From Flavobacteriaceae bacterium (GTDB taxonomy: Bacteria > Bacteroidota > Bacteroidia > Flavobacteriales > Flavobacteriaceae): a DNA stretch of 64,000 nt. Under the pieces are notes generated by a model. It did not search any database and was not told the origin of the DNA. It worked only from the letters and a program-made list of their open reading frames with translations. Both the position numbers and the translations under genes were made by a program. Positions within the stretch are counted from its first letter, which is position 1. Every line of letters begins with the position of its first letter. The stretch lies in NCBI GenBank assembly GCA_016744415.1, contig JADGEL010000001.1:806001-870000 (forward strand). Direction: 5' to 3'. Positions 57,062-61,304 of the stretch are shown piece after piece.

Positions 57062-58267
57062 CTACATTTCTAATGCTTTCTTAATGTCATTATCCATTAA
57101 CAAATCAATTGGGCTTTCTAATGCTTCTTTTACAGCAACTAAGAAACCAACAGATTCACGGCCATCAATAATTCGATGGTCATAAGACAAAGCAACATAC
57201 ATAATTGGTTGAATCACAACTTCACCATTAACTGCCATTGGACGGTTTACAATATTGTGCATTCCTAAAATTCCACTTTGTGGAGGATTTAAAATAGGTG
57301 TAGATAGCATAGAACCAAACACACCTCCATTGGTAATAGTAAATGTACCACCGGTCATTTCATCAATAGTAATTTGACCATCTCTTGCTCTAATTGCCAA
57401 TCGCTTTACTTCGCTTTCAACACCTTTAAAAGTTAATTTTTCGGCATTTCTAATTACAGGAACCATCAATCCTTTTGGCCCAGATACTGCAATTGAAATA
57501 TCTTGAAAATCATTAGTAATTTGAAAATCGCCATCAATCATCGAGTTTACATCAGGATACATTTTTAAAGCTCTAACAACTGCCAATGTAAAGAAACTCA
57601 TAAAGCCTAGACCAACACCATGTTTAGCTTTAAAGTCTTCTTTATACTTTTTGCGTAAATCAAAGATAGGCTGCATGTTTACTTCATTAAAAGTAGTTAA
57701 CATAGCAGTTTCATTTTTAACAGATACCAATCGTTGCGCAACTTTACGTCGCAACATCGATAGTTTTTTTCGATCAGTTTTGCGCTCACCATTTTCTGGC
57801 ATCGTACCCATAGAAGGTACTGCTTTTATAGCGTCCTCTTTAGTAACTCTACCATCTTTACCAGTACCTTTTATTGTTGAAGCATCCATGCCTTTTTCAG
57901 CTAACACCTTTTTTGCAGCAGGTGATGCTGATCCAGTTGCATAGGTAGTAGTAGATTCAACTGGTTTTTCAATTTCTTTAGACACGGTTTTCTCAACTGA
58001 TTTTGTAGAGGTAGCTCCTTCCGGTTTTTTACCATCTAAATCAATTAAACAAACTATGGCACCAACTTCAACTGCGTCACCTTCTTCAGCTTTTAAAGTG
58101 ATGATTCCACTTTCTTCAGCGGGTAGTTCTAAGGTTGCTTTGTCTGAATCTACTTCGGCAATGACTTGATCTTTCTCTACATAATCACCATCCTCTACCA
58201 ACCATGTGGCAATTTCTACTTCGGTAATTGACTCTCCCGGTGATGGGACTTTCATTTCTAAAATCAT
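57062..58267 (-). CDS. sucB: Dihydrolipoyllysine succinyltransferase (E2 of 2-oxoglutarate dehydrogenase)
   Basis: 401 residues. N-terminal lipoyl domain with the lipoylated lysine in [12 protein letters not shown] (Lys43), a Pro/Thr-rich linker, a peripheral-subunit-binding domain ([20 protein letters not shown], about 115-150), and a catalytic domain ending [15 protein letters not shown] (catalytic His and Asp). Transfers the succinyl group to CoA in the TCA cycle. A small open gene (58281-58418) and sucA lie upstream on the same strand. Confidence 0.96.
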
Positions 58268-58280
58268 GATATTTTATCTT

Positions 58281-58418
58281 TTATATAGAACTATTTGCAG
58301 TAATTACAATTAAAATATACCCAACAATAACTAAACATGCTAACCCCCAATATTTCTTAAACATTGACTTAGTCCATTTATTTGCACCCCACATAGGGAA
58401 TTTATTGTTTTTTAACAT
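58281..58418 (-). CDS. Predicted 45-residue single-pass membrane protein between sucA and sucB
   Basis: A 45-codon frame with ATG start and TAA stop, in the 298-base gap between the sucA stop and the sucB start, on the same strand. The N-terminus (MLKNNKFPMWGANKWTKSMF) is basic with two tryptophans; the next segment KKYWGLACLVIVGYILIVIT is a clear membrane helix, and the tail is ANSSI. It stops 13 bases before sucB and is well placed for translation in the same transcript. I cannot match it to a known family. The regular hydrophobic pattern and the position argue for a real gene; the short length argues caution. Confidence 0.6.
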   Translation of the reverse strand: MLKNNKFPMWGANKWTKSMFKKYWGLACLVIVGYILIVITANSSI

Positions 58419-58565
58419 AAATACTTACTTTATTTACTAATTCAAAATTTTAATTTGTTCAATTCCTATATCAAACTTATATAAAAACTTTTTATCTAAT
58501 TTATTATATCTAAACATATAATTCCAAACAATTTCTTCTATATAATAAAACTGACGATATAATTT
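58419..58565. other. Intergenic stretch between sucA and the small gene
   Basis: 147 AT-rich bases with no coding frame, tRNA or clear hairpin that I can see. It could hold a minor promoter, but no perfect -7 box was found. Confidence 0.35.
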
Positions 58566-61304
58566 TTATATTTTATCAGTGCTAAATACACTATCAATAA
58601 CTCTTTGTTGTCTTCTTTTATCTCTTGTGCTAGAACCTGGTGCTGGTGCTGCTGCAAAATTTCTTGCTGAAACTTCTAATTTCACCAAGTTTAATCGCTG
58701 TAGCATAAATGACCATGCACCCATATTTTTAGGTTCTTCTTGTGCCCAAACATAATTTTTGATATTTGGATAACGGTCAATAACTTGTTGAATTTTTTCT
58801 AGATGTAGTGGGAATAACTGTTCTATTCTAACTAATGCAACATCTTCACTTTCTAGTTTTTCTCTTTCTGCTAGTAAATCATAATAGAATTTACCAGTAC
58901 AGAAAACTAATTTTTTTACTTTTGATGGGTTGATGGTATCATCAATTACTTCTTGGAATGTTCCTTCTGATAATTCACTAATCGATGAAATTGCTTTTGG
59001 ATGACGTAACAAACTTTTTGGAGTTAAAACAATCAATGGTTTTCTGAAAGTTCGTTTCATTTGCCGTCTCAATAAATGGAAGAAATTAGCAGGTGTTGTA
59101 CAATCTGCCACAATCATATTGTCTTTGGCGCACATTTGTAAATAGCGTTCCATACGTGCCGATGAATGTTCAGAACCTTGACTTTCATATCCATGGGGAA
59201 GTAACACTACTATTCCGTTTTGCATTTTCCATTTATCTTCAGCAGCAGATAAGTATTGGTCAAAAATAATTTGAGCACCATTACTAAAATCACCAAACTG
59301 AGCTTCCCAAATGGTTAGGGTATTTGGATTTGCCATAGCATAACCATAATCAAAACCTAAGACTCCGTATTCGGACAACAAAGAATTGTAGATTTGCATC
59401 TCTCCTTTATTATTAGGATTTGTATTTAGCAAGTTAATACGTTCTTCAGAAATTTCATCACGTAAAATTGCATGTCGGTGGCTAAAAGTTCCACGCTCTA
59501 CATCTTGCCCAGAAATACGAACATTAAACCCTTCTTCTAACAAACTCCCATATGCCATGGTCTCGGCCATACCCCAATCTAGCTTATCGGTTTCAAAAAC
59601 CATTTTAGCTCTACCGTTTAAAATGCGCTCAGCTTTGCGAACAAATTTTACACCTTCAGGAACTGTCGAAACAATTTTTGCAATCTTCTCTAAATTATTT
59701 TTAGCGTAAGATGTATCCGTCGGAACTAACATCCCTTCCAATTTTTCGCGTTTAAAATCTACCCAACGCTCTTGCATAAATTCACGCACTTTAGAAGATT
59801 TTTCTTCTTTAGATTTTATAAATTCACCTTCCATCATTTCTTTAAATTCAGAAATAATACCTTTAACATAAGTATCATCAATGGTGTTTTCAGTAATTAA
59901 TTTATCAGTATATATCTTTAAAGGGTTAATATGTTTCGAAATCGATTTGTATAATTTTGGTTGGGTAAATCGAGGTTCGTCACCTTCATTATGCCCATAT
60001 TTACGATACCCTAATAAGTCGATATAAACATCTTTTTTAAATTTCATTCTATAATCCAAGGCTAACTCTATGGCGTGTACTACAGATTCTACATCGTCAG
60101 AATTTACGTGTAGCACCGGAGATAAAACAACTTTTGCAACATCAGTACAATAAGTACTTGAACGGGCATCGAGGTAATTGGTTGTAAATCCGATTTGATT
60201 GTTGACAACAATATGGATAGTTCCACCAGTTTTGTAACCACTCAATTGACTCATCTGAGCAATCTCATAAGCAATTCCTTGTCCTGCAATCGCAGCATCA
60301 CCATGTACAATAATTGGTAAGATTTTAGAATCATCTCCATTGTAATCAGCATCTATTTTTGCACGAGTAATCCCCTCAGCAACAGAAGCAACTGTTTCTA
60401 AATGCGATGGATTTGGAACTAAATTCATTTTGATGGTTTTTCCGTTTTGATAGGTTTTATCAAGAGTCAATCCAAGGTGATATTTTACATCACCATCAAT
60501 ATTAGCGTCATCAAAATCTTTGCCTTCAAACTCACTAAACAACTCACGAATAGGTTTTCTAAACACATTTATCAAGGTGCTTAATCTACCACGGTGTGCC
60601 ATACCAATAACACATTCTTTAACTTCATAATCGTTAACAGCATTGAATATTGCAACGCTAATTGCCGGGATTAAAGATTCACCACCTTCTAATGAAAAAC
60701 GTTTTTGACCAACATATTTGGTCTGTAAAAAATTTTCGAAAGTAACAGCTTGATTTAGTTTTGAAAGAATATATTTTTTTGCACCAACAGAAAAGCTAGG
60801 ATGATTATCATTGGTATTCAATTTACTTTGCCACCATTTAATCACATCAGGATTTCGGATATACATATATTCAACTCCGATAGAATCGCAATATATTTGC
60901 TCTAAATGAAAAAGTATTTTTTGTAAAGAAACGTTCCCTAATCCTAAAACTTCACCAGCATCAAAATTAGTGTCCAAGTCATCTTTTGACAATCCGAAAT
61001 TTTCGAGTTCAAGAGTAGGCTTGTAGGCTCTTCGAGTTCTTACTGGATTAGTTTTAGTAAATAAGTGGCCACGAGTTCTGTAACCATTAATTAAATCGAG
61101 TACTTTAAATTCTTTGAGAACTTGCTCAGGGACCTTAGCATGAATTTCTTCACCATCAAAATCATAATCTTCATTGGCTAAATCATAGCCTTGAAAAAAA
61201 CTTCTCCAACTAGGTTCAATCGCATCTGGGTTTACTAAATACTTATCGTATAAGTCGGCAATAAATCCTGAATGTACTGCATTTAAAAACGAAAATCTAT
61301 CCAT
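58566..61304 (-). CDS. sucA: 2-oxoglutarate dehydrogenase E1 component
   Basis: 912 residues. Thiamine-diphosphate enzyme that decarboxylates 2-oxoglutarate and passes the succinyl unit to SucB lipoate. Signatures: N-terminal 2-OGDH domain (NAVHSGFIADLYDKYLVNP), GMAHRGRLSTLINV, the ThDP segment HGDAAIAGQGIAYEI, IGFTTNYLDARSS, and the C-terminal WAQEEPKNMGAWSFM. Followed on the same strand by a small membrane-protein gene and sucB. Probable promoter box at 61344-61351. Confidence 0.97.
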   Translation of the reverse strand: MDRFSFLNAVHSGFIADLYDKYLVNPDAIEPSWRSFFQGYDLANEDYDFDGEEIHAKVPEQVLKEFKVLDLINGYRTRGHLFTKTNPVRTRRAYKPTLELENFGLSKDDLDTNFDAGEVLGLGNVSLQKILFHLEQIYCDSIGVEYMYIRNPDVIKWWQSKLNTNDNHPSFSVGAKKYILSKLNQAVTFENFLQTKYVGQKRFSLEGGESLIPAISVAIFNAVNDYEVKECVIGMAHRGRLSTLINVFRKPIRELFSEFEGKDFDDANIDGDVKYHLGLTLDKTYQNGKTIKMNLVPNPSHLETVASVAEGITRAKIDADYNGDDSKILPIIVHGDAAIAGQGIAYEIAQMSQLSGYKTGGTIHIVVNNQIGFTTNYLDARSSTYCTDVAKVVLSPVLHVNSDDVESVVHAIELALDYRMKFKKDVYIDLLGYRKYGHNEGDEPRFTQPKLYKSISKHINPLKIYTDKLITENTIDDTYVKGIISEFKEMMEGEFIKSKEEKSSKVREFMQERWVDFKREKLEGMLVPTDTSYAKNNLEKIAKIVSTVPEGVKFVRKAERILNGRAKMVFETDKLDWGMAETMAYGSLLEEGFNVRISGQDVERGTFSHRHAILRDEISEERINLLNTNPNNKGEMQIYNSLLSEYGVLGFDYGYAMANPNTLTIWEAQFGDFSNGAQIIFDQYLSAAEDKWKMQNGIVVLLPHGYESQGSEHSSARMERYLQMCAKDNMIVADCTTPANFFHLLRRQMKRTFRKPLIVLTPKSLLRHPKAISSISELSEGTFQEVIDDTINPSKVKKLVFCTGKFYYDLLAEREKLESEDVALVRIEQLFPLHLEKIQQVIDRYPNIKNYVWAQEEPKNMGAWSFMLQRLNLVKLEVSARNFAAAPAPGSSTRDKRRQQRVIDSVFSTDKI

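Follow-up and report, generated by a model that had tools for sequence, protein, structure and literature searches.

An orphan family of predicted single-pass microproteins in Flavobacteriales, with a member in the sucA-sucB gap

The small frame in the sucA-sucB gap and its relatives

The window, by which we mean the whole analysed DNA stretch of 64,000 nucleotides, carries the genes for the E1 and E2 components of 2-oxoglutarate dehydrogenase, separated by a gap of 298 nt. As the original prediction had pointed out, an open reading frame of 45 codons (58281-58418, minus strand) lies inside this gap, on the same strand as both genes. Features of the locus are listed below in the order of transcription.

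58566-61304, minus strand: sucA, 2-oxoglutarate dehydrogenase E1 (NCBIfam NF006914, 1180 bits)
58275-58559, minus strand: 285-nt unit conserved across genera, beginning TATCGTCAG and ending TAAAAGATA, which contains the small gene (alignment; far more alike than sucB, with identity falling at the border; also present at a non-suc site, L067/L072)
58437-58559, minus strand: upstream open stretch YRQFYYIEEIVWNYMFRYNKLDKKFLYKFDIGIEQIKILN, closed by a stop and lacking an initial start codon, perhaps a vestige of a gene's 3' end (open in six units; pN/pS)
58395-58418, minus strand: eight further codons of the 45-codon frame, MLKNNKFP, more probably part of the leader immediately preceding the start (comparison of leaders in L061, L062 and L065)
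58281-58394, minus strand: probable coding sequence proper (37 aa, MWGANKWTKSMFKKYWGLACLVIVGYILIVITANSSI), a predicted single-pass membrane protein (homologues, selection, inferred start, helix model)
57062-58267, minus strand: sucB, E2 succinyltransferase with the E3-binding domain intact (NCBIfam NF004309, 499.8 bits; PF02817, E 2e-12)

A tblastn search through 397 genomes of the same family revealed the small-protein frame in another genus (G312, 80% identity) and in a third (G209, 52%), together with weaker relatives; the frame is shared with other genera at 49-84% identity. Weak matches located in longer frames or overlapping other genes (e.g. L035-L037, L096) were discarded as unrelated. 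With an eight-member profile and E ≤ 0.001, 11 of the 397 genomes gave a match, of which two are probably chance hits; E-values go down to 1e-21 among homologues, and each carrier genome has a single match. Scanning of the species genome set disclosed 25 loci, among them those of the cultured Lacinutrix mariniflava (suc form) and Aureicoccus marinus (free form). Carriers are mostly uncultured genomes.

Members of the family occur in two forms. The free-standing form (33-37 aa) is found beside many unrelated genes, and the suc form lies within a unit of 285-300 nt. The two differ in the residue after the WT pair, which is mostly K in the suc form and D in the free form, and the suc form has a TANSSI tail.

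Selection was assessed on nine suc-type sequences, in which pooled pN/pS is 0.47, with 0.24 in the first 19 codons counted from the MWG methionine and 0.85 in the rest, while two other reading frames of the same alignment give 0.95-1.13. In the free form, pS is 0.78 and pN 0.28. The difference between 0.24 and 0.85 suggests that the head half is held at the protein level, whereas the membrane and tail half (pS 0.26, pN 0.22) is conserved equally at the DNA level.

Length of the frame is weak evidence, because among 2000 shuffled versions of the gap with dinucleotides preserved, 38 (~ 2%) contain an ATG frame of at least 45 codons on the same strand. These shuffles speak for a chance open frame in an AT-rich spacer, an explanation that is rejected by conservation of the frame across genera and by purifying selection, and to which we assign hardly any probability. 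Judged by the sequence comparisons, the frame is a real coding gene with relatives in other Flavobacteriales.

Anatomy of the microprotein and comparison with known families

Alignment of 23 members shows M1, N5, W7, T8 and M11 to be invariant and W2, G3, F12, Y15 and W16 nearly so. The resulting near-invariant head motif, MWG[AG]N[KN]WTxxMF[KR][KR]YW, is followed by one membrane helix, in agreement with the Trp/Lys-rich start and single helix described in the original prediction. A structure model contains one helix at residues 6-36 (mean pLDDT 82), and hydropathy of the best 19-residue window equals 2.27.

The open frame of 45 codons is real, but the 45-residue product initially proposed is probably too long, a 37 aa protein starting at Met9 (58394) being likelier. 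This start is preferred because the upstream ATG of L061 and L062 lies in a different frame from the protein, the leader of L065 is not homologous, and free-standing members begin at MWG, except for one, in Aureicoccus, which begins at MLEH. In several free-standing members an in-frame stop is located just ahead of MWG. A shortened gene was observed in L032 and L033, in which the head has been lost through a 52-nt deletion and the frame is regained for the helix and tail.

No match above threshold was found for the microprotein in Pfam, NCBIfam, PHROG, PADLOC or PDB, so that its description as an unrecognised protein holds; PADLOC gave no match at all, PHROG matches were sub-threshold, and no solved structure in PDB matched. 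The nearest look-alikes, as far as profile comparisons indicate, are YniD and UPF0370, which resemble the family over a short segment leading into one helix and remain below cut-offs. YniD (NF041491), a small membrane protein of unknown function, is likewise tiny and single-pass. Its best score among members scanned singly is 16.4 bits, for the free-form L081 over MFKKHW plus the helix, against a cut-off of 40 bits; the match leaves out the WGANKWT head, and the window protein has no NF041491 match. UPF0370/PRK13664 (PF13980, NF010185) matches weakly over KYWW plus the helix. NF010185 is matched by 10 of the 23 members (best E 0.0086), and in a member scanned singly it reaches 10.6 bits against a 98-bit cut-off, with only positions 3-22 of the 65-position model aligned. 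DUF6724 (PF20485) scores 15.8 bits, below its gathering cut-off of 27 bits. Taken on its sequences, the family is a new, previously unnamed orphan family of single-pass inner-membrane microproteins of 33-37 aa in Flavobacteriales, represented in marine flavobacteria.

Distribution of the gene and of the unit that carries it

Most of the 25 loci lie away from suc, and no neighbour is common to all of them. Free-standing members are situated, among other places, behind the gene of an FAD oxidoreductase, behind that of a TSUP-type transporter, beside that of an MBL-fold protein and near that of a pterin dehydratase, all named by reading their sequences. In several genomes free-standing members follow the upstream gene at 2-22 nt, without a long leader. 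The free-form genome G200 has an ordinary sucA-sucB gap of 36 nt. One locus with the flavobacterial motif (L083) belongs to an assembly labelled Candidatus Rokubacteria; it shares neighbours with the Flavobacteriaceae MAG L079 and is probably a contaminating or misnamed contig.

The suc form is found in five of the 397 family genomes, including two with the short version, usually just upstream of sucB, and this position recurs in several genera. At L067/L072, the suc-form gene and its unit are situated between genes named by eye as enoyl-CoA hydratase and MOSC. Among 14 genomes of the genus to which the window belongs, one has the gene, and so does one of 19 in the genus of G312. The original prediction had tied the reality of the frame to its conservation at the same position in related genomes; the frame is conserved across genera, but it is missing from all 13 other genomes of its own genus. 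Those gene-lacking congeners that were checked keep sucA-sucB. Where congeners have a plain gap between the two genes, it is short: six that share the genus of the window have 16-29 nt, G112 has 11 nt and G376 has 33 nt.

Alignment of units disclosed a sharp left start and an identity that far exceeds that of the adjoining sucB in three pairs: 92.6% versus 73.5% between the window and L033, 97.2% versus 76.7% between L032 and L033, and 90.2% versus 68.0% between L061 and L032. Identity of the unit drops at the sucB border. The relation is reversed between L063 and L064, with 80.9% in the unit and 86.7% in sucB. Strong constraint on the DNA could in principle mimic recent transfer; uniform constraint does not appear to explain the pattern, because the units of L063 and L064 are less alike than their sucB genes. 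In a SucB tree the nine carriers do not form one group, and never do so in 200 bootstrap trees; their distribution needs four gains or losses, two of which are forced by strongly supported branches. Because identity of the unit exceeds that of sucB and stops at its border, and carriers are scattered, we suggest that the unit has spread horizontally between genera, independently of sucB, and that the microprotein is not an obligate subunit of the enzyme.

The first 123 nt of the unit are open in all six units compared, the window copy having an in-frame 15-nt deletion. With pN/pS of about 0.42, as opposed to about 0.7-0.8 in other frames, this stretch is mildly coding-like. It has no Pfam match, and assignment to a known protein was rejected on this ground; it could be what is left of the 3' part of a gene taken along with the unit. 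The initial 73 nt of the unit recur at 81% identity in genome G065 (L128, about 1501-1573), ahead of a gene read by eye as lspA, where the small gene is absent.

A structured RNA was also considered and rejected. The region has no Rfam match, the fold of the unit is no better than that of shuffled sequences (z -0.44), and a two-sided compensating change was observed at only one of 59 pairs.

These features invite comparison with a non-autonomous, MITE-like mobile element, in which the small frame would be kept mainly as a part of the element. The sharp left end, DNA identity confined to the unit, two kinds of location and the appearance of its first segment beside lspA are consistent with such an element, as are the unit ends, which are weakly complementary in the fold. 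However, the window's genome has a single copy of the unit, with one match in every other carrier genome, in place of the multiple copies of a MITE. Significant terminal inverted repeats are unsupported, since shuffles often score as well (63, 97, 318 and 10 of 1000 equalled the score in four units). In addition, the head half is under selection at the protein level, and free-standing homologues exist outside the unit. We regard a MITE-like element as unlikely, if still credible. The flanks, inspected by eye for a target-site duplication, are AT-rich. No insertion footprint was found, which, together with the terminal repeats, also counts against the spread of the unit suggested above.

Phage, virus or plasmid origin was rejected on the results of searches in these sources. 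No viral contig encodes a confirmed relative or holds the two DNA patterns; tblastn with the upstream peptide in phages and plasmids, with the small protein in plasmids, and with a made-up family-like sequence in phages returned nothing.

Other genes were also noticed in the sucA-sucB gap of relatives. The congeners L011, L012, L016 and L018, and also L113, have a gene with an ORF6N domain there (PF10543, with E 3.7e-36 in L016), and shortened ORF6N remnants are present in L019 and possibly L013. L011 is the closest relative of the window by SucB. Like the microprotein gene, ORF6N-domain genes are sporadic inserts in this gap, although the ORF6N-domain protein, with 170 aa, is unrelated in sequence. 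Unrelated genes identified by eye in the gap comprise a small secreted protein (L062, L152), a SnoaL-like protein (L065) and a lipase-like secreted protein (G148, L124). It would seem that the gap has served as a landing site more than once.

Relation to 2-oxoglutarate dehydrogenase and proposed role

The original prediction proposed that the small protein tethers or tunes 2-oxoglutarate dehydrogenase at the membrane. In a restricted version of this proposal, considered here, only the suc form would act as a membrane tether or modulator, and free-standing relatives would do something else. Recurrence of the suc form immediately upstream of sucB in several genera agrees with this, and so do the residue after WT and the TANSSI tail by which it departs from the free form. 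Against it, the gene is absent from nearly all congeners that retain sucA-sucB, the suc form resides away from suc in L067/L072, and the tail need not reflect binding given the near-equal pS and pN of that half. The free-standing relatives, the patchy carriers and the apparent movement of the unit apart from sucB weigh against the proposal in general and disfavour an obligate suc partner. A role in 2-oxoglutarate dehydrogenase is unlikely, and we consider the restricted version quite improbable; the location between sucA and sucB seems most likely incidental.

The eukaryotic adaptor MRPS36/Kgd4 is a small protein tied to the same enzyme, to which the microprotein is tied by gene position alone. 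Eukaryotic E2o lacks an E3-binding domain, for which MRPS36 substitutes, and prokaryotes have no orthologues of MRPS36 (PMC9974300). The window SucB, in contrast, retains its own E3-binding domain, which also speaks against a tether, and the window protein has a membrane helix, unlike MRPS36/Kgd4. No sign of kinship between the two was found, as had been supposed from the outset. A literature search found no report of a bacterial small protein at sucA-sucB.

Size, one membrane helix and sporadic spread would also fit a small hydrophobic type I toxin disseminated horizontally. In several genomes the tight spacing between free-standing members and the gene before them, which leaves no long leader, argues against a toxin, as do the PADLOC and PHROG results and the lack of an Rfam match in the region. 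We consider a type I toxin very unlikely.

With modest confidence, we favour a new orphan family of single-pass microproteins which, in the suc gap, is cargo borne by the unit, and whose members serve as stand-alone membrane accessories. By the positive-inside rule, the positively charged head would be cytoplasmic at the membrane surface and the tail periplasmic. With its aromatic and lysine residues the head may dock either to the inner leaflet of the membrane or to a partner. Anatomy and distribution are compatible with a protein that acts on its own as a helper or modulator in a membrane process whose genes lie elsewhere. The suc-linked unit would have spread horizontally, moved by transposition or by DNA uptake with recombination, and the sucA-sucB gap would be a permissive landing or recombination site offering its cargo an expressed, same-strand place.

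Recurrence of the suc form at the same place relative to sucB could reflect selection for position. A horizontally spreading microprotein that repeatedly settles in sucA-sucB and anchors or throttles the enzyme at the membrane would represent an optional, transferable regulatory subunit, a reading we hold to be highly improbable.

These microproteins add an uncatalogued family to bacterial small membrane proteins, with a motif sharp enough for finding members elsewhere. The findings suggest that a small gene can pass from one genus to another as part of ~ 290 nt of DNA and settle within an operon of central metabolism. They also caution that, for a gene with a patchy distribution that stands alone in other genomes, sharing the operon of an enzyme says little about a role in that enzyme.
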